Shown here piece by piece: positions 1-48,457 of a stretch of DNA of 64,000 bases. The notes under the pieces are model-generated. The model was not told where the DNA came from. It worked only from the letters and a program-made list of their open reading frames with translations, and did not search any database. Position 1 is the first letter of the stretch, and each line of letters opens with the position of its first letter. A program made the translations under genes and the position numbers. Source of the stretch: Hyaloperonospora brassicae (taxonomy: Eukaryota; Oomycota; Peronosporomycetes; Peronosporales; Peronosporaceae); assembly GCA_947650285.1 (NCBI GenBank), contig CANTFL010001468.1:147756-211755 (forward strand), written 5' to 3'.

Positions 1-384
1 CACGGTGATTCAAGATACGCTTCACTAGGAAGCGTTGATCACCGTGAGCATCCACCAAAGGATGTGGTGGATGAGGAAAGACCTCCTCTAGATGATTCGG
101 TTCACCATCTCGACCCTTACGAGATGGATCGCGCAATCGATGAATTGCGCGATGACTTGAAGCACGAGCGCGATTGGCGCTACGCTTTGACTGATACCGT
201 GCGGAAGAACCACAAGGATCACGAGGCTGATCGGGCGAGGGATCGCGCCGATTATGCCACGGCGCAGCTTCAGGTCGAGCGGGATGTCCGCTCCCTATTC
301 GGCGAGCTGGCGACAGCTCGCGGGGAGATATCTCGGTTGAGTTCCGAGGTATCGTATCTGCGCGACCAGACGGATCGTCTGTAG
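1..384 (+). CDS. Coiled-coil ORF antisense to the Gypsy 3' region, partial
   Basis: The frame is open from the left window edge (no start seen) to a TAG at 382-384. It reads as a very hydrophilic, heptad-like helix: DRAIDELRDDLKHERDWRY, ARDRADYATAQLQVERDV, ELATARGEISRLSSEVSYL. Directly after the TAG the same frame continues for 28 codons with the same composition (RERKNLINVLERGGYLHRKK) to a TGA at 469-471, which suggests a premature stop in a once longer frame. It lies on the strand opposite Pol, just past the integrase C-terminus. It may be a real accessory ORF of this element family or a compositional by-product of its palindromic sequence. I recognise no domain. Confidence 0.4.
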   Translation, partial: HGDSRYASLGSVDHREHPPKDVVDEERPPLDDSVHHLDPYEMDRAIDELRDDLKHERDWRYALTDTVRKNHKDHEADRARDRADYATAQLQVERDVRSLFGELATARGEISRLSSEVSYLRDQTDRL

Positions 385-420
385 CGAGAACGCAAGAACT
401 TGATAAATGTTCTTGAACGT

Positions 421-1947
421 GGGGGCTATCTTCATCGGAAGAAGAAGGCTCGTACTGACAGTACGGCCTGAGTTGCCCCACGTAAAACGTAGGATGCGTG
501 CGCATCTTACGTGGCAATTCGAGTGTGTATGCATTGCCCTTGCGATGCAACACTCGAAATGGCCCAATATACTTCGGCAGTAGTTTAATACTGCCGACAC
601 TAGTGACTGTATATCTAGGTAACTTTACCGTAGACAGTAGTACTAGGTCATTAACTTTAAATGAAAGAACATTTGCTCTTCCATTCTTGTCTGCGTTCCA
701 TTCTGACGGTCCACCGCATTTGCGATGGCGTCCTGAACGAAACGGACTACCGATTCTCGAGTCAGCAGGAAGTTCTCTGCTGACTCTTTGTTTTGTCTTT
801 CAGTGCGCTTCGTGCGCACTGCTAAGAGATTGCCCTCTTCTTCAGAGAGGTTGTCTTCTTCCTCGCTGGAATAATCGTTGACGATGCTGAATATACCAGC
901 ATCTTCATCATCATCCAAGTCATTAATAGCGTCGCCGCTATTACTGATGTGATCTTCTTCATCAATGTCGACTTGATCGACATCGGCATCATACGTGACG
1001 AAGTTAGCGTCGACACGTAATGAGCAAGAGCCAAAACGGTTTTTGCTTGAGCGAGTCCCTCCCCCCTTAATCCAAGAGTCATACTCTAGAAGGGTGTGCA
1101 CACGTGGATGGCGTAGGCCATTTACGTAAAACGGTGTGTGCTATGTGGAAGCATGCACCGAATTATTGATGGCGAATTCCACCATGGGTAGGAATTCGCT
1201 CGAACTCGGAAACGAGTGGACATATCCTCGAAGGATCTCTTCGAGGACACGGTTTGCACGTTCCGTCTGACCATCTGTTTCGGGATGGTCAGAAGTGGAC
1301 ATCTTCAATTGTGTTCCAAGAGTACGGAACACGGTTTGCCAAAATGCCGCCGTGAACCGAGGGTCACGGTCGGATACGAGTTCACGGGGTAACCCGTGGA
1401 GTCTAAAGACCGTGTCTAGAAAGACACGAGCACAACCTTGAGCCTTGATCGACTCAGGGACAGCAGCAAGATGCACCATCTTGCTGAATCGGTCAACAAA
1501 CACAAGAATACCATTATTCTTGTGAGCATCTTCGGGAAAACCGAAGACGAAGTCCATTGAAACGGACTGCCAGCACTCTATCGGAACAGGCAGAGGCTGC
1601 AATGGCGCACGGGATGAAGGACTAGGCTTCACCCGTTGACAAACCTCGCAAGCACATATGTACTTGCGGACAACTTGATACTGGCGTGGCCAGTAAAAGT
1701 CACGACTTACCGTGAGTTAAGTCTTTTCTCTACCACGATGGCCACCTATTGGGGCATCGTGACACTCATACATGATGAGTAAACGCAAATCATGATGAGC
1801 GAGTACGACGACACGAGTCGTGTCGTCGGCAACAGCTGTATAGTACAGCAATCCGTTGCGTGTACTATACCGATCCGATGAGGATCGGTACAAAGCCGGT
1901 AAATCCCTCATGGATTTACTGGATGGATTCACCAGATGATCCATCAA
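421..1947 (-). pseudogene. Gypsy integrase, broken
   Basis: Integrase inserts the cDNA. The zinc-binding N-terminus is in 1947-1717 (VLAHHDLRLL, ECHDAPIGGHRGREKT), then the frame breaks near 1716. The catalytic core follows in 1632-1141 with SMDFVFGFP, VDRFSKMVHLAAV, LVSDRDPRFTAAFW and the DDE glutamate region HPETDGQTERANRVLEE. The C-terminal domain continues in 1101-421: an acidic insert, FVQDAIANAVDRQN, and in another frame GPFRVLHRKGNAYTLELP, MRTHPTFYVGQLRPY and an acidic serine tail. Breaks near 1716, 1140 and 640-720 disable it. Residues of all three integrase domains are visible, so the family call is secure. Confidence 0.92.
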
Positions 1948-3821
1948 TCGCAGAAGATCCTTATCTTCTGCGTATGCCTTTGTACGTCGTCAAGTAAACT
2001 TGACGAAGGGACACTGACTGACAGTGTCGCAACAGTGGGCCTATCCTCACTGTTGATTTGTGCGTCCGGCTCGAAATCGGGCCGGCGCGAAAGCGCATCA
2101 GCGACGATATTGAGTCGTCCTGGTTTATACTCCACGGAGAAGTTATACTCCGCGAATAAATACAGCCACCTCGCCATCCTTTGCGAGAGGTGTGGGCTGT
2201 TTAAAGCCGTGCGTAGCGACGCATGGTCCGTATAGACAACAAACGATCTATCTCCCAAAAAATGGACGCGAAACTTAGCCAGTGCGTACTTCATGGCAAG
2301 GATTTTCTTGTCATGCACTGGGTAATTACTCTCATCTGCTTGCAGCTGACGCGACTGATAACAGATGACGCGCTCCGCGCCATCTGCATCGAACTGCATT
2401 AACGAACAGCCGATTGCAAAATCGCTGGCGTCACAGACCACATGAAATGGTCTGTCCTGATCTGCAATCGCCAAAATAAGCGATCGCATCAAGCTTTTCT
2501 TGATGCCTTCAAAGGAAAGCTGACAGTCAGCGTTCCATGACCACTTGACATTTTTCTTGAGCAAGCAAGAAAGATGAACAGTCATCTCGGCGTACTTGTG
2601 CGAGTACTTGTGCAAGTACGCCGCTAGACCAAGGAACTTCCTTAGTCCCTTGACATCGACTGGCACTGGTCAGTCGGTGATCGCCTTGATCTTTTCGGGA
2701 TCAGGGCGTACGCCGTGTTTACCCACGATGCACCCAAGAAGTGGTATTTCGCTAGCCGCGAATATACATTTCTTGAGTTTGGCGTACAACTTATGCTTGC
2801 GCGTAAGTTGAAGGACTTGACGAACGTGGGTTCTGTGAACTTTAACGTCCGTCTTTCCGTCCATATCCCGGCTATGGACGAACACATCGTCGAAGTAACT
2901 CGGTGCTAAATCGCGCACTGGTATCAACAGATTTGTGACACATCTGTTGAATGTTGCAGGGGCATTGCTCAGCCCCTGTGGCATAACTAGCTACTCCCAC
3001 GCATCCCGCTGGGGGTACTCACTGCCGTGAACGGGATGTCCTGTTCACGCATGAGGATCTGATAAAATCCATCCATCAGATCCATGGACGAAAAGATGGT
3101 ACTCTTTGACATACCATCTACGATTACGTCCTTCCTCGGTATCGGTGTCTGAGCCGGTACCGTTGCAGCATTCAATTTGTTGAATGCGTGCACTATCCGA
3201 CACCCTCCTGTGGCCTTTCGCACACAGAAGGTCGGAGAGCTGTGAGGGGATGTCGATTTCCTCACATGGCTCGCTGCTAAGCGATCGGCAAAGAACTTGT
3301 CGATCGCTAGTACTTGTTCACGAGGCGGTGGCCACTGCTTCATGACACAATACTTCGAGCCCGGTCTGAGCTCGATCTCGTGTCGAGTGCCTTTGTCCTT
3401 AGGCAACTCGCACGGTACGGATTCAGGGAACACATCCTTGAATTCGATCAAATCCTTATACAAAGTATTTGCCCTGAAGTGACTCCCAGAATTGGGACGC
3501 GTATCGCTCAATCCGAGTCTTCTCATCGAGGACACTTTCGTCCATCGATGAGCTGCTGAGAACCCGTTCGTTCTCAGCAAATACTGTGGCCGACCGAATA
3601 TCGGCCACATACTTATCCTCTGTGACGAGTATGCAGATCTGCTTGACTTTGCCACTACGCAGATCACGCAAGAACCGTTTCGGTTCTAGCGTTGGCAACT
3701 GAGTTATCTCCGAAGTTATCTTAGGAGGCACAATCAGATCAAGCGTATAAGCGCCTACGCTTGATCCGTCATTAACCAAGACGTTCAACGTTTCGGTTAC
3801 TTCCTGGGAACTTGTTTCCAC
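1944..3821 (-). pseudogene. Gypsy reverse transcriptase and RNase H, broken
   Basis: These domains copy element RNA into DNA. The linker (3821-3456) is followed by the RT fingers/palm in 3667-2987, with CELPKDKGTRHEIELRPG, TFCVRKATGGCRIVHAFNKLN and the first catalytic strand FSSMDLMDGFYQI. Near 2987-3000 a frameshift and a TAG fall just before the conserved MPQGLSNAPATF. The next piece (2984-2670) carries the active-site motif YFDDVFVHS. The RNase H-like part (2666-1944) has FLGLAAYLHKY, VVCDASDFAIGCSLMQ, DKKILAMKYAL, YTDHASLRTAL and GRLNIVADALSRRPDF. At least two breaks separate the pieces, so no full-length enzyme is possible from this copy. Confidence 0.93.
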
Positions 3822-4391
3822 AGGTTGCTGAAGGCCTAATCCTTCAGCAAGCTACTCTTGAGAAATTCCTCTCTCAAGTACGTGGGGACTTATTCCCTCG
3901 ACGTCTTCTGACTGTGGCTGTGCAACCACAGTCAGGGACCGATACTCTACGGTCGACTCTCCAGTCGAACTAGGATTTCCATGTTGCCCTTTGGAGGCAA
4001 CAGGTTTTTTACTTCTAAGATTCTGCCCGCTAGGCATGCATTCATGTCCCGGTCCACTCGACTTAATCAAGTGGTGGACCTTCGGCGTAGCCTGTACTTC
4101 TGTACAGCCGCCGGGAGCTTGCTCCACAGTGTAGTGATCAACTACAATGTGATCTTGTCCAGTCATGCTAACGACCGAACCGCAAGTGAGGCCATCGCAC
4201 TCACTCGCAGAACATCCACACGCTTGTGGACGCTCCAAGATGTTCATCTGATGGCCATCTGATGAACGAGCAGCAGGCATCTTCACGGATCGATGCTGCC
4301 AGCTCACCCTTGGCTCGTACTTTCTGAGCCAAGGTAATCCCAGGATGACATCAAATTTGTCATCCAGATCCAGTACGATGAAGTCATCATC

Positions 4392-4685
4392 TTACTGTTC
4401 GTCCTCCAACGTGTAGTAGATTCCTACTACACGTTTCTCAACGGTTATCGATGCGCCTGTTGCAAGGCGCACCGTCATCCTCGTGAGGGGAATGTCGCGC
4501 TCAACAAACTTGAGCCTACCACCCTCTAGTGACTGGCGACGAACAAAGTTGTTCGACGCCCCACAGTCTACTAGGGCACGAAGCGACAAACCATTTGTCG
4601 CTTCCAACTTCAAGGTGATGAGCGAAACGTCATCAACAGGTGCAGAGACACACACTGATTGTGTACCTGGAGCAACTTTCGTCAA
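4392..4685 (-). pseudogene. Gypsy aspartic protease segment
   Basis: This open segment contains LRALVDCGASNNFVR, the retropepsin active-site signature of oomycete Gypsy elements, with Cys where D-S/T-G-A is usual. The following residues (MTVRLATGASITVEKRV) fit the flap and second strand region. It would process Gag-Pol. It lies between the gag knuckle and the protease-RT linker. The frame stops at 4392 although element coding continues below it, so it is cut off from RT. The unusual residue before Gly could be decay or a family trait. Confidence 0.75.
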
Positions 4686-4735
4686 GAGATTTGCAAATTC
4701 TCTTGAGATTGCTGGATCAGTAGGGCGCTCCGCCC

Positions 4736-5893
4736 CTACTGACCCCGACCATTTTTTGATGGTCCGTCTCGCTGTTGCGGCTTCGCAACAGCGCTGGAAC
4801 CACGCCCATTTCCCTTCTTGGCGAATGGTCGTCCATTTCGCTCAATACTGCTTGGTACTGGGCGTGAAGCACTACACTCATGTGCGAAGTGCCCTAACTT
4901 CTGACAGCGATTGCACTTCAGCAATCGCTTGTTATTTGAAGAGCGAGGTCTCTCGCTCTCAACATATCAGAGGTCCATTGGTTCTGGACCTCCCATCTCT
5001 TGTCGTCTCGGTGGATGGTAAGAGTTTGAGCTAGCATGAGCCTGTCTCATGCTAAAGTCTTCCTGTTCCGCGGCTGATATCGCTTCTTCAAGCGTATTCA
5101 GCTCAAGGCGGAATGGGTGGCTCCTGACGGGCCCTTCTGCGAGCCCTTGCATGAACACCAAAATCAACGTGTATTCATGAACTGGGTTAGAAGTTATACT
5201 ACTCGCTAGGAGTCGTATATGTTGTGCGTAAGCGTGCACATATCGCTTACCCTGCTTGAGTTTCAGAAGCTCAGAACGATCCCTGAAATCAGCTCGTGGT
5301 AGCTCAAACGTTTGTCTGAGCCGGTACTTGAAGTCATCTAGCGACCTAAACACATGTGGGTCGCTACTCTCGAGTCCCAGGGACCAAGGTTTTGGCACGA
5401 CCTGCCAATTGGGTCTGAGCGAATGTGAGTTTCATTTGCTCATCTTCGACGCGACGAGCCCTTAAAGCTCTGTCGAGCTCGACAAACCATCGTAACAGGG
5501 AGTCCTTCGACACTCCACTGTACTTGGAGATGTCAACCTTCATGACCTCGGGACGACGCGCATGCGCCTTCCCGCCCACAGCAGCATGGGATTGCTGCTG
5601 TCTCAACAGCTCTGTCTGATGAACACCGAGTTCTCTCAACTGCTCGGCCTGTTGAGAGCCTTGCTGGTGGAGCAAGGATACTTTCTTCCTTTCGGCGACA
5701 AGTTTACTTTGGATGAACTTGGCGATAGCGCGGCATGTTGTTGGTCTCTGTCTAGAGACTCCAACATGGCGCTAATGGCGAACTCGCCTACGGTAGAACT
5801 CATTCATTCTACCGCACCCCATTCGATGTCACTCAAATGGGTAAACCCTTCACTCGTGGCGTTAAAGGTCCCTTTATCATCCAACATGTTCAT
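4736..5893 (-). pseudogene. Gypsy gag (capsid and zinc knuckle), broken
   Basis: Gag packages the element RNA in cytoplasmic particles. An ATG at 5893 opens a short acidic N-terminus that hits a TGA and then changes frame near 5700. Reading resumes at 5675-5364 and 5398-4967 with the retrotransposon gag core, including LLRWFVELDRALRARRV, FKYRLRQTFELP and the conserved LEEAISAAEQED. After another break, 4924-4736 carries a CCHC knuckle (CNRCQKLGHFAHEC, spacing CX2CX4HX4C) followed by a basic Ser/Gly tail. At least three disruptions make it non-functional. It is followed immediately by protease. The family assignment is firm; the exact original frame junctions are inferred. Confidence 0.85.
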
Positions 5894-5937
5894 GTTGGAT
5901 GTTGTGGTCCTTGGAAGGACTACAAAGTGCTACCAGG

Positions 5938-6330
5938 TGTAACGGGGCATACCCTTGCGTGAACTTAACGCAAGGGTATCGGTGCCCCGACAGACGTACA
6001 CGAGGCGACGAGGAAGCGTAGGATAAGGAGAAAGCAGAACTGTTATATTAATTACAATTAAGTCTTTTAACTACTGTCTCTCTGTTTGACTTAACTTTAT
6101 TATGTCAATATAACTGAGTGTATGGTGACGTCTCGTCACCACTCATTGCGCGCGTCCTGTGGCGAGTGGTGGGTTGATATCATCACGATATCAACCAATG
6201 AGCAGATCCTTTGGTCGCTTCACCAATATCACCATTATCGGTGATATTGTTCGAAGAATATTCACTTAATATTCTTTGTTGTCACTTTCTTTTAAAGTGA
6301 CACTTCCATGTAACGGGCTGCCCCGTTACA
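5938..6330 (-). repeat. 5' LTR of the Gypsy element
   Basis: The 393-bp segment starts TGTAACGGGGC and ends GCCCCGTTACA, a long terminal palindrome containing the canonical TG...CA. A second copy of similar length lies at 48067-48457. It lies directly upstream (minus-strand sense) of gag. Internal perfect stems include TGGTGACG/CGTCACCA near 6123-6141, AATATCACC/GGTGATATT at 6225-6248 and AGAATATT/AATATTCT at 6255-6275. The interior flank reads CCTGGTAGCACTTTG on the minus strand and is the likely primer-binding region; I do not assign the tRNA. Confidence 0.9.
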
Positions 6331-22242: not shown

Positions 22243-22552
22243 TGTAATTTGAATTTGCAGCGACAGGTGCCAAGTAGCAACAGTTGTCAAAAATGTAATG
22301 GGTGCGGAGCGACAGGGTCAGTGCGACGTTGCCATGTCTTGGTGGATAAGGAGTGAAGGGGTCTGAATGACAACAAAATCGGTTGGTCTAGAAGCGTGCG
22401 GAAAAGAGAAGATATGAGACCATGCACAGCACCTGCAAGAGTAGTAGTAGTGTGCACTAGGAATAGCCAAGTGCGCAAGTATATGTAAATGTCAGTTCCA
22501 AAAACACCATCCCGTGCTAACATCTCCATTGAGCAAACCGTAATCTTCAACA
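22243..22552 (+). repeat. Copia 5' LTR
   Basis: It runs from TGTAATTTGAATTTGC to AATCTTCAACA and is repeated at 26834-27143. Differences seen by eye are one near 22336 (CCATGTC against CCAGGTC) and three in the last 22 bp. Confidence 0.93.
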
Positions 22553-23123
22553 GGGTTATGAGCCCGAAAGACGCCGTGAGCTTAATGAAGAAGATGGGTA
22601 AGCAGAAGTACTTGAGTGGAGGAGTTCCGATTGAGTGGGATGGGCGTGATTGGCAGTTTTACAAGCTGGTCATGCGAAATGTATTCGATGAGCAGAAGAT
22701 GAGTGACATGATTGACGAGCGGTATGATAAGGCCAAGCTTACCACTGCGGAAGGCCAAGAAGCATACGATCAACTTCAGCTCCGGGCGAAGCGCTACATC
22801 TTTACTAGCCTATCGCGAGATCTGCTACATCAGGTGCGCGAGCACACAACAGCACCAGAGCTATGGAAAGCTTTGGTGGCTTTATACGAGGACAAGTCGT
22901 ACCCCACACATCGAGGAAACCGTGTAAGACAGATGGTTCATGAGCTTTGGAATGCAAAGCTGGAGGTAGGTGAAGATGTGAATGCGCATTTTGCAATGAT
23001 GTTTAATCTCAGGACGGATCTGGCTGATCCACAATACACCGTGAACGAACTTGATATGCGTGAAGCTTTGTTATCTAGTTTGCCGACAACGACTCAATTC
23101 AACCAACTGCGACACACAGTATG
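22489..23123 (+). pseudogene. Copia gag
   Basis: This is the structural protein of the particle. The first ATG (22489) lies inside the LTR; an alternative ATG at 22558 lies within the presumed primer-binding site, and either could be original. The body matches the Copia gag (UBN2-type) fold: WDGRDWQFYKLVMRNVF, WKALVALYEDKS, NAHFAMMFNLRTDL, REALLSSLP. The frame ends in a TGA after RHTV, continues in frame for 16 further codons (FAGDAAIYTPEKFES) to another TGA near 23170, and there the coding shifts by +1 into the knuckle/protease frame. Confidence 0.85.
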
Positions 23124-23169
23124 ATTTGCGGGTGACGCGGCGATCTATACACCAGAAAAATTCGAAAGC

Positions 23170-26100
23170 TGATTCGAACAGGTGCTGCCCTGCAAGAAGA
23201 GGCCAAGAGCGGATTGGGCATTGCCGCTCTGATGAGCACAAGGCGCAGGGACGTGGAAAATCAGCGTGAACATAAGAAAGGTGTTCATGGTGGTAATAGC
23301 AAAGGGTTTAACGCTATTAACATAGCGAAAGGGCTGGGTAGAGCGAAGGACAAACAGAAGAAGTGCTACACGTGCAGCAGTTACGAGCATATGAAGAGAG
23401 ATTGTCCTCATCGTGCAAAATATGACGATGCGTCGACACCAGCCAGAGATAAAGGCGGCGATCGTGATAAAGGTAAACGCAATGCGAAGACAAACTTCAC
23501 GCGACGTGACGTGCTTGGTATCTTTGTTGAGGATCAAGACGTAGAAACCAGTGAAATGGGGCATGTGGACGATGTCGAATGCATTGTTGAAACACAGAAA
23601 GAGACCAATTCCGTCGAGATGCAGGAGTGGTACATCGACACTGCATCAAACACTCATGTGGTCGGTGACAAACGATACTATATTCGATATAGGGAGCTTT
23701 CGATCGACGAAGCGATTGTGCGTGGCGTTGCACCAAGCTTCCAGGAACAACCAGTTGGTGTTGGAACGATCGTTCTTGAGACACTTGTCGAAGGAAAGAC
23801 AGTCCATACTGTGATCGACGACGTGCTCTTAGTTCCTGGTGCGATCAACCCGCTTTTGTCGATGGGACGTGCACTCGACGATGGATTTAAATTCGGGTGG
23901 GACTCGAACACGCACCGATTTACTATGATAAAGAGCAACGAAGCAGTGGCACAAGCTGACAAAGTAGGAGCAGTTTGGGTGTTCGAGGGGGAAATCGCAG
24001 CTTGAGATACGGTTGGCAAAAGTATAGAGACGCGCGTGATAAACTTTACAGCTTAAGATGGTGTCACTGATCTGCAGTTGTGGCATAAGCGCTTGGGTCA
24101 TGTGTGCCCACAGTACATCAAGCTGATGGTGAATAAGAAGCTTGTCGATGGTATGATGCTCTCAGGACGAGATGTACATGACTGTGAGACATGTCACTTG
24201 GCAAAGCAAGTACGAAAGTCATTCAGGAAGTCGCTGGACCGCAAAATTGTCATGCCAAATCAACTTGTTTATGCAGAGATGCTAGTGCCGGGCATCTCTT
24301 GCGGCACAAGAGTTGGAGCAATTTTGGTCATCATGGATGCATTCAGCAAGTTTGTGACGACCTACATGCTGCGCACGAAAGCAGCAAGTGCAGCGGCCGC
24401 TACTTTGAAGCAGTACTTTGCTTGGGCTGAACGACAAGCTCGTCGTCATACAAGCGAAAACATCGGCTATACAAGGGCTGCATATCCGGTACGACAACTA
24501 CTTACGGACAAAGGTGGTGAGCTCGCGAGTTCCGAATTCAAGCAATGGTTATATATTCGAGGCATAAAACATGTACAAGTTGGACCAGCCAGTTCGCAGC
24601 AGAACCCATGCGAACGGGTTCACAGGACATTAACGGAGATGACGCGAACGATGTTGCAACACTCGGGCATGTCTAAAATATTTTGGACGGATGCATTTCA
24701 ATAAGCTGTCTATATTAAGAACCGCATATTTTCTCGTGGATGCGCAAGCACACCGTACGAAACAATGTTTGGAATGCGACCAGACATCCATCATCTTCGA
24801 ACTTTTGGCTCACTGTCGTATGCGCACGTCAAAGCTAACGCACGTCGTCACAAGCTGCACCGTAACGCAAAGATCGGGTATGTTTTGGGTTACGCAGAAG
24901 ATATCGTGGGTTGAAAACTCTACTTTCCGGATGAACGCACGCGGAAATACGTGCCTGACATTCGGGTGAACGAGAACGTTCTCTACCGCCGCCGACATAC
25001 CAAGGCATATGTTGCAACCGACACCGTGGATTTTTGCGATGTAACCATCGACGAGGGCGACAGCGGTGTCGATGCAGACGAAGACGTGACCAATATGTGC
25101 TACGACGTATGTGACAGCGATGACGTACGTGATGTAACCATCGACGAGGGCGACAGCGGTGTTGATAAAAATGGAGACGTGACCAGTATGTTCAACGTGG
25201 TCTATGGGGTGAAGACCAACGAGCAAGGAGGAGTGATTCGATTTGAAGCTCGACTCGTTGCGCGTGGTGACAGGCAACGCGCAGGTGTTGATTTTGTCGA
25301 CACGTTTGCACCAGTCGCTCGCATGGCGTCGTTTCGATTGTTTGTCGCATTGTCGGCGATGTTAAATCTGGAAATCTACAGTTGTGACGTATACACAGCC
25401 TATCTCAATGCGGACTTACAAATTCCACAGTACGTAAATTGAATTCAAGGTCACGTGAATGATAGCAGCAAAGCGTATATAGTGAGGAAAGCGGTATATG
25501 GATTGCGTCAAGCTGGACGAGCGTGGAACACGGAATTAGATCAATTTCCAAAGGCACAAGATTTTGAACATGGATAAAGAGAGCCGTGCTTATACGTACG
25601 TTGGCAAAATGGAGAAGTCTTTCTAACGCTGGTATACGTCGACGATGTACTCACAGCAACAAAATCAGTAGAGCAGAAGGATGAATTGTTCGAGTTGCTT
25701 AATAAGCAGTATGGCATTAAAGATCACGGGCGAGCAACACAGTATCTTGGTGTTGAGATTGATCGCAGTGACTCCAGCTACTGCTTGCAGCAGACTCAGT
25801 ATACACGTGAAATTCTTGAGCGGTTTGGATTCACAGAAGCTCGCAAAGTCGGCAACTCAGTGGATTGCACCACGCGACTTGTGCATGAAGAACCAGAGAC
25901 AAGTACTGAAATGGTTTCTTATCGGTACCGTCAGTATACACGTGAAATTCTTGAGCGGTTTGGATTCACAGAAGCTCGCAAAGTCGGCAACTCAGTGGAT
26001 TGCACCACGCGACTTGTGCATGAAGAACCAGAGACAAGTACTGAAATGGTTTCTTATCGGTACCGTGAGGCACTAGAGGCGCTCATGTAATTGGCAAAGT

Positions 26101-48066: not shown

Positions 48067-48457
48067 TGTAACGGGGCACACCCTTGCGTAACTTAACGCA
48101 AGGGATTTGGGTGCCCCGACGGACGTACACGTGGCGAGCGAGGAAGCGTAGGTAGGGTAAAAGTAGAACTGTTATATTAATAAATTAAGTCTTTAAACTA
48201 CTGTCTCTTCGTTTGACTTAATTCAATTATACTAATATAACTGGATGTATGGTGACGTCTCGTCACCACTCATTGCGCGCGTCTTGCGGCGATTGGTGGG
48301 TTGATATCATCACGATATCAACCAATGAACAGACCCTTTGGTCGACCCTTCAATATCACCACTTTGGTGATATTGTTTTAAAGAATATCCATCTTTATAT
48401 TCTTTATTGTCACTTTCCTTAAAGTGACAATTTCATGTAACGGGCTGCCCCGTTACA
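48067..48457 (-). repeat. Solo LTR of the Gypsy family with TATAA target duplication
   Basis: It aligns along its full length with the LTR at 5938-6330 in the same orientation: same terminal palindrome, and GATATCATCACGATATC and CACTCATTGCGCGCGT inside. It is flanked directly by TATAA at 48062-48066 and TATAA at 48458-48462, a perfect 5-bp duplication. No internal element sequence adjoins it, so it arose by LTR-LTR recombination of a complete insertion. Confidence 0.95.

Follow-up and report, generated by a model that had tools for sequence, protein, structure and literature searches.

The first 6,330 bases of a 64,000-nucleotide stretch of Hyaloperonospora brassicae DNA (contig CANTFL010001468.1, positions 147,756 to 211,755; the whole stretch is called the window) hold, on the minus strand, the larger part of a Gypsy (Metaviridae-type) long terminal repeat (LTR) retrotransposon filled with perfect short hairpins. 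Gag, pol and LTR all carry hairpins far above chance. The stems are essentially Watson-Crick, and the favoured feature is nearly equal on both strands. Together with a second Gypsy lineage of the same genome, the element may reveal a strand-symmetric hairpin code laid over the protein code and the LTRs, with a stem length set by the lineage, kept by selection and, by prediction, recognised by the element itself as an identity tag on its RNA and complementary DNA (cDNA). This description is given a little less than an even chance of being right. All copies compared below come from H. brassicae; a protein encoded in the window is 100% identical to one of this species across 99% of its length.

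Stems were counted as non-overlapping perfect inverted repeats with arms of at least 7 bp and loops of 3-15 nt. The element (1-6330) has 80 of them, against 4.46 ± 1.93 (maximum 10) in 200 dinucleotide shuffles. Its 14 open segments have 82, against 7.70 ± 2.74 (maximum 18) in 500 codon-preserving shuffles; these segments overlap in places, so one stem may count twice, in observed and shuffled sequences alike. An earlier note, made from the sequence alone, had reported such an excess, which is real and larger than it had claimed. The ten stem pairs that it listed, and a nested one at 17-23/29-35, are all present, some of them one base longer. Where it saw at least 13 stems, between 3050 and 3950, there are 15 perfect stems of at least 7 bp, of which 13 have loops no longer than 15 nt. 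The pattern also stops at 6330, as the note had said, because the LTR ends there. Eight other stretches of 6,330 bp in the window contain 2-13 stems each, and the stretch with 13 includes a solo LTR at 48067-48457. In another copy, L021, the three open reading frames (ORFs) hold 19 (ORF1), 66 (ORF2) and 18 (ORF3) stems against 1.6, 3.5 and 1.7 in shuffles.

Twenty 10-kb pieces were taken at round coordinates on contigs known to hold the element, and are not a random sample of the genome. At least five stems are found in 23 of their 200 one-kb windows, 21 of these in the five loci that blastn matches closely to the element and 2 in locus L020. The latter (L020:6000-8000) are two adjoining kilobases with five stems per kb and without a blastn match to the element. 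Among 43 open frames of at least 200 amino acids, 14 were excluded (11 relatives of both Gypsy lineages and 3 Copia). The 29 control frames left show a slight excess at most, with 267 stems against 232.6 expected for arms of 5-6 bp and 43 against 38.4 for arms of at least 7 bp; one frame alone, L007:7305-8582, has 14 against 7.2 and 5 against 1.5. A 399-amino-acid piece of an intact Copia frame (1,726 amino acids) has 4 stems with five-bp arms and loops of 3-8 nt against 3.7 expected, and its folding energy differences (MFED) are -4% and +5%. A broken Copia element in the window (22489-26087) has a weak excess of 6-7 bp stems, unlike the intact piece, which is from another family.

That the hairpins arise by chance, base composition or codon usage can be practically discounted. 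Both types of shuffle give stem counts far below those observed, and the 29 control frames lie near expectation. The earlier note had held that an equal stem density in codon shuffles, in other genomic DNA or in unrelated Gypsy elements would speak against it. The codon shuffles and the other DNA do not reach such a density. For Gypsy elements the result is divided, as the second lineage is also saturated with hairpins, but with shorter stems; the note's own contrast had been with Copia only.

This second lineage is intact (copies L009 and L086; also L023 and L011), and its pol is identical to that of the long-stem lineage at 558 of 1021 residues (55%). L086 was at one point taken as a hairpin-free control, having 0.5 stems per kb of at least 7 bp, a choice overturned by its arm-length spectrum. 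With loops of 3-8 nt, L086 has 110 arms of 4 bp against 62.5 expected, 80 of 5 bp against 17.4, 11 of 6 bp against 3.9, and none of at least 7 bp against 1.2; two longer stems exist, with loops of 9-15 nt. Fewer stems than expected by chance run on past 5 bp (11 of 91, p=0.002), and none of these 91 extends to 7 bp (p=0.003). The loops peak at 3-6 nt and are T-rich, and C is strongly preferred at the loop-closing position (70 vs 16.8). Stem length therefore differs by lineage within one host genome, 4-5 bp against 7-11 bp. Where the hairpins lie in one lineage bears no relation to where they lie in the other (13.5 nt, against 13.5 ± 2.8 for random shifts).

The anatomy of the long stems can be followed in L021, a copy lying within one of the 10-kb pieces, whose LTR pair is 99% identical and whose frames encode 396, 1308 and 411 amino acids. 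It has 132 stems (loops 0-15 nt) with a median span of 24 nt, covering 39% of its length. The arm excess over shuffles is greatest at 7-11 bp; five arms measure 12 bp and one 14 bp. Among loops, lengths of 3-6 nt are the most frequent, and the excess has faded by about 13. Thirty non-coding stems have an arm mode of 8-9 bp and a maximum of 11; arm length is thus not limited by protein coding, because these stems stop at 11 as well. Stem energies are narrower than in randomisations of arm composition, with standard deviations of 3.2, 3.1 and 3.1 in L021, L003 and L044; the lowest among 100 randomisations were 3.8, 3.4 and 3.3. AT-rich arms are longer in L021 (rho -0.27, p=0.0024). A limit on span (arm versus loop, rho -0.24) was set aside, since by estimate chance inward extension of stems would give a similar correlation. 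Third codon positions are paired together 20 times, against 38 and 37 for the other phases (chi-square 6.5); codon shuffles give 66 against 87 and 104, and a codon-phase bias is not clear beyond that.

Pairing type bears on the strand on which the hairpins would act. Single mismatches inside the stems of L021 comprise 17 G-U, 17 A-C and 27 others; with the stem flanks included, there are 57 G-U against 48 A-C (p=0.44). Six related pieces have 41 G-U against 45 A-C inside stems and 46 against 44 on the inner flanks. Counts are also about equal in six further copies, where they were made on the fetched strand, so that G-U and A-C swap for L081, L083, L084 and L085. Per 150 nt of pol, the sense strand folds at -61.6 kcal/mol and its codon shuffles at -40.9 ± 0.85; for the antisense strand the values are -60.0 and -39.0. 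The gap between sense and antisense is the same as in the shuffles. In 250-nt windows, with codon shuffles as control, the MFED of long-stem pol is 49% for sense and 50% for antisense. That of short-stem pol, by the same control, is 15% on both strands. Because folding is equal on the two strands and G-U is not preferred, the favoured property must be nearly the same on both.

Evidence for selection on the stems can be provided by comparing copies at different distances. The F2 subfamily of the long-stem lineage is 73-77% identical to F1 copies in gag, and two of its pol pieces are 84-88% identical to the window copy. Its five gag pieces have 9-15 stems per kb, its two pol pieces 12-15, and the old copy L006 has 4.6. 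Of the testable pol stems of L021, 34 of 58 are fully paired in the F2 copy L044 and 25 of 57 in L045. Third codon positions differ between L021 and L044 at 36 of 353 sites in stems and 181 of 833 elsewhere, and between L021 and L045 at 45 of 347 and 197 of 840; for L045, second positions show no difference (27/327 vs 65/862). Double Watson-Crick changes between L021 and F2 are found in 10 of 513 pol pairs, and clear double changes are present in gag stems. Third positions in stems differ about half as much as others between the two subfamilies. The non-coding LTR types A and B differ from each other at 0.027-0.039 of stem sites and 0.14-0.15 of other sites, a divergence 3.6-5.5 times lower in stems. 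Double Watson-Crick changes number 0.9 per 62 LTR pairs from A to B, with none from B to A. All these stem rates call for caution: the stems were picked for being perfect in a given copy, so that changes private to this copy are lost from them.

The short-stem lineage gives related results. Stems of L086 are conserved relative to the old, 83%-identical copy L023 (0.100 in stems vs 0.188 elsewhere; in reverse, 0.042 vs 0.183) and to L011 (0.136 vs 0.196), and hardly so relative to L087 (0.046 vs 0.059). Double changes between L086 and L023 are no more frequent than in slid controls (5/250 vs 0-5/251).

Copies of different age point the same way. In the 2700-4700 stretch, compared in 19 copies, the youngest have 17.5-18 stems per kb, the lowest 11 and the window copy 12.5, and the distant old copy L014 has 5.8; stem density is lower in decayed copies. 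All 18 copies besides L003 exceed the mean stem density of a simulated neutral decay starting from L003, a sign that some of their divergence may date from a lineage that kept its stems. With a stem defined by at least 10 of the 19 copies, mutations private to one copy are equal in stems and elsewhere (155/620 vs 336/1365, p=0.87). Variants common to at least two copies are scarcer in stems (23/620 vs 111/1365, p=2e-4). The copies share kinship, so these p-values are optimistic.

The earlier note had left two causes open, selection and a template switching that perfects palindromes. A model in which one arm is rewritten from the other predicts about 9 double changes in the LTRs, where about 1 is seen (p=0.001). 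It predicts 60 in pol, where 10 are seen; coding constraint lowers that expectation. From too few double changes together with low stem divergence, we infer purifying selection on pairing in the transposing lineage. Selection is likely to keep the hairpins, rather than template switching alone. The selection part of the earlier proposal thus holds up, with LTR stems differing 3.6-5.5 times less between types A and B, third positions about half as much between the subfamilies, and copy-private mutations falling equally on stems and other sites. Template switching as sole cause is rejected on the rates; it could still help create stems.

How the hairpins might work is a matter of prediction. In this view the perfect Watson-Crick hairpins that tile the element along its length are likely maintained by selection in the lineage that transposes. 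These would be read by a protein encoded by the element, most likely Gag/nucleocapsid, on the genomic RNA and the complementary cDNA. By recognising hairpin geometry, this protein might select and condense its own nucleic acid. Since stem length differs between lineages in one host, it would seem to be set by something that the element encodes. A fold needed both as RNA and as cDNA of the opposite sense, where G-U becomes A-C, would explain why G-U is not favoured. If pairing is selected almost equally on the two strands, its reader would be expected to encounter the element's nucleic acid in both senses. In retroviruses and Ty elements, Gag takes the RNA into the particle and remains there with the cDNA. 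For this reason Gag/nucleocapsid is the obvious candidate, and the Gag of F1 has a CCHC zinc-knuckle motif. Selected Watson-Crick hairpin tiling, with the predicted reading by Gag/nucleocapsid on RNA and cDNA, is the best explanation at hand, and a tentative one that we hold to be more probably wrong than right in its full form.

Several observations weigh against this explanation. Only two lineages stand behind the lineage-specific length rule, which is few for such a rule, and proteins that read RNA usually tolerate G-U. On the outer flanks of stems in the six related pieces, G-U does exceed A-C (66 vs 43), a lean that is pulled by L012 (10 vs 1) and is unexplained. By simple counts, no loop or stem motif common to the long-stem lineage is seen. 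Regular spacing of the hairpins was looked for, and the linkers are exponential instead (coefficient of variation 1.03, gaps up to 190 nt), as for random placement. The correlation of base composition with arm length has the same sign in L003 (p=0.19) and L044 (p=0.125) and is not significant there. Conservation is also uneven. Within F2 (L044 to L045), stems are hardly more conserved than other sites (33/918, or 0.036, vs 107/2634, or 0.041), and the same is true of L086 stems relative to L009 (0.042 vs 0.048; in reverse, 0.020 vs 0.053). In a comparison with type A, the stems of F2 LTRs show no conservation (0.275 vs 0.259), and subfamily-specific stems are common in the LTRs. The scarcity of shared variants in stems weakens with a looser definition of a stem, by at least 3 copies, which lets in misassigned pairs (37/678 vs 97/1307, p=0.11). 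Finally, L021 has 16 imperfect against 97 perfect stems of at least 8 bp, as a copying mechanism would also give. This near-absence of imperfect stems is the best argument for copying; strong selection would produce it as well.

Copying is the subject of one alternative, in which the nascent strand folds back during reverse transcription and one arm is copied into the other, with a tract length that differs between the enzymes of the two lineages. Such template switching has been proposed for nematomorph palindromes (PMC6649704) and RNA stems (PMC8794818), in the accounts given there. It would suit a lineage-specific stem length, the lack of a G-U preference inside stems, the rarity of imperfect stems, and the decay of stems like other sites in chromosomal copies. 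It should, however, leave a near-neutral stem divergence in the form of double changes, and the rates between LTR types A and B and in pol are those given above: about 1 double change per 62 pairs where 9 are expected, and 10 of 513 against 60 before protein constraint. Arms also halt at 11 bp even in the 30 non-coding stems, and the differences found in lineage-specific stems show no clear bias towards the 5' or the 3' arm (58 against 50, with 20 of 28 altered in both arms, a count that some stems enter from both sides). We regard it as unlikely as the explanation, to the same degree as evasion of RNA silencing. There, folded sense and antisense transcripts would block pairing and the binding of small RNAs, with stems below the length of a Dicer substrate. 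Strand symmetry would suit a need on both RNA senses, and the median hairpin span is 24 nt. The share of self-folding 21-nt windows is 0.35 and 0.43 in the two lineages (sense), against 0.22 in one codon shuffle of L081, and the effect is found on both strands. Small RNAs of Phytophthora infestans map along Gypsy elements in both orientations (PMC3522703), and structured viral RNAs are less sensed in animal cells (PMC3950689). Both lineages live under the same host silencing, yet their stem lengths differ; the hairpins are randomly placed with long gaps, and the intact Copia piece has no hairpin excess.

Selection might also act on the folding of single-stranded cDNA alone, for example in strand transfer or minus-strand protection, with RNA irrelevant. 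Pairing of the Watson-Crick type only is natural for DNA, and the loop-closing C and T-rich loops of L086 would fit; no signal specific to the antisense strand is found, however, and A-C, which is G-T on that strand, is not favoured over G-U. This possibility is rated as somewhat more doubtful than the two before it. Still less probable, at a small fraction of the total, is a conventional fold of the sense RNA, serving packaging, translation or stability. The very large folding excess (MFED 49%) and the outer-flank lean to G-U speak for it. A structure of the sense RNA only, as one reading of the folded RNA genome that the earlier note had put forward beside template switching, is not supported, because mismatches inside stems show no preference for G-U (41 vs 45 A-C in the six pieces) and, measured against shuffles, folding is just as strong on the antisense strand; the outer-flank lean is left unexplained by this.

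Several known systems resemble the element in part. In the mitochondrial genes of Nematomorpha, coding sequences contain palindromes of at least 15 bp, with a mean of 43 and up to 142 bp, for which conversion was proposed (Mikhailov et al. 2019, PMC6649704); in that account they have no established function. Like the hairpins here, they are perfect inverted repeats in functional genes, with both arms coding, no excess of imperfect copies, and gains and losses between relatives. The hairpins described here differ in lying in a nuclear retrotransposon, with arms of 7-11 or 4-5 bp that have an upper limit, in dozens per copy and in the LTR as well, and in being partly conserved beyond other sites. 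Arms in L021 are 7-14 bp, mostly 7-11, below the 15 bp of the nematomorph palindromes, and double changes are far below what conversion between arms would give. The nematomorph repeats are also depleted where they would pair third codon positions with each other, a phase for which L021 gives the counts above. Template-switch mutations are described as creating and maintaining hairpins (PMC8794818), and such a process would yield perfect stems and double changes; the rate pattern here is one of constraint, not of near-neutral turnover by double changes.

For genome-scale ordered RNA structure (GORS) in RNA viruses, PMC3950689 uses an MFED threshold of 3% and gives 9.0% and 10.9% for native regions of MNV and HCV. 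The element shares with these genomes a folding excess across its whole length, coding sequence included, and its MFED of 49-50% clears the threshold; this value is for pol only and uses a codon-shuffle control, where that paper uses a dinucleotide control. Unlike GORS, the hairpins are perfect stems of a set length in an LTR retrotransposon of a nuclear genome, not a positive-strand RNA virus, and the MFED of the short-stem lineage is 15%. Dispersed packaging stem-loops in RNA viruses, read by the virus's own capsid protein as outlined in PMC6281560 and PMC4751978, also consist of many stem-loops across the genome with conserved geometry. Here, by contrast, simple counts give no recognition motif in the long-stem lineage, the contact with Gag is only predicted, and pairing is perfect and strand-symmetric. 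Oomycete Gypsy elements (Metaviridae) have the same order of gag, protease, reverse transcriptase (RT), RNase H and integrase and also have LTRs; hairpin tiling of the whole element is what differs here. No report of hairpin tiling of an LTR retrotransposon was found in open-access titles and abstracts, a scope that leaves subscription papers mostly outside.

The element spends its synonymous freedom far, with about 39% of one young copy inside perfect hairpins and long frames still open. Because copies of many ages, two lineages and non-coding LTRs share one genome, it is a natural test case for selection versus mutation in the origin of palindromes. If Gag does read the code, this would go some way to account for how the RNA of one retrotransposon is distinguished from that of others and of the host.

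The window copy has the parts expected of a Gypsy element, with two LTRs, gag, and then protease, RT, RNase H and integrase in that order. Its coding strand is minus, and it is cut at the window edge: the full copy, delimited by its LTR pair, is contig C876:146099-154085. Its start lies before base 1 of the window, as the second LTR, at C876:146099-146490, falls beyond the window edge. With the 5' LTR at 5938-6330 it shares 99% identity. The latter is 393 bp long (TGTAACGGGGC...GCCCCGTTACA), non-coding, on the minus strand, and carries 7 perfect stems. The following segments, all on the minus strand, were assigned by Pfam. The gag segment (Retrotrans_gag, PF03732) is at 4970-5431; a CCHC zinc-knuckle motif downstream of it can be read in the window copy and in L021 (F1 Gag). 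A protease region (RVP_2) at 3855-4391 scores 19.8 bits, 0.5 bits below the curated cut-off of 20.3. An RT segment (RVT_1) is at 2673-2990, an RNase H-like segment (RT_RNaseH and RT_RNaseH_2) at 1947-2669, and an integrase segment (rve and Integrase_H2C2) at 1144-1716. The open segment at 2-799, with a Tf2-1-like SH3 domain (PF24626), is probably part of the third frame known from L021 (411 amino acids). Next to the 5' LTR is a TGG-type stretch, which may be a tRNA primer binding site; no tRNA genes to match it were found in the 16 sources scanned, and an Rfam scan of the DNA gave no family at its gathering score.

Examples of stems in the window copy include one within pol at 3737-3766 (11-bp arms, 8-nt loop) and one at 4408-4435, whose 12-bp arms are near the upper limit of arm length. 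The stem at 4580-4604 (11-bp arms, 3-nt loop) has a C-G to T-A double change in the F2 subfamily, and the one at 5032-5054 has two adjacent double changes between F1 and F2. In the LTR, the stem at 6172-6196 (10-bp arms) keeps its sequence in the LTRs shown of types A and B, as well as in the F2 copy L075, and is altered in the F2 copies L069 and L067. The solo LTR at 48067-48457 (minus strand, limits approximate) is hairpin dense and belongs to type B of the long-stem family; it is 99% identical to the LTR L058.

The two LTRs of the window copy are 99% identical to each other, no other among the 40 LTRs scored exceeds 94% identity to them, and the reading frames of the copy are broken. This looks like a recent insertion from a defective or divergent source, or like homogenised LTRs. 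In pol, the F2 copies L044 and L045 share 84-88% identity with the window copy; in gag the figure drops to 73-75%, and for the LTRs shown it is 72-77%. Uneven identity of this kind may, as a possibility, reflect past recombination between the subfamilies. The locus of an F2-type LTR region, L006:1497-1980, also contains the end of that region a second time, in inverted orientation.

The long-stem family is large, with 2,117 first-look candidates, of which 40 were scored. In a search with a Phytophthora RT protein, all 106 scored candidates (of 5,741) match, 104 of them without a stop in the matched stretch, which indicates that many copies are young. For a 300-amino-acid RT piece, no relatives were confirmed in viral and genome contig collections, so comparisons stay within H. 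brassicae DNA. Among the best 120 of 1,413 protein matches, the closest named RT relatives are from Peronospora matthiolae and Pythium oligandrum. Among the matches listed, a Pythium oligandrum protein is 85% identical to the RT piece, and the named Phytophthora relatives are about 59-75% identical; so patchy a distribution might reflect horizontal transfer.

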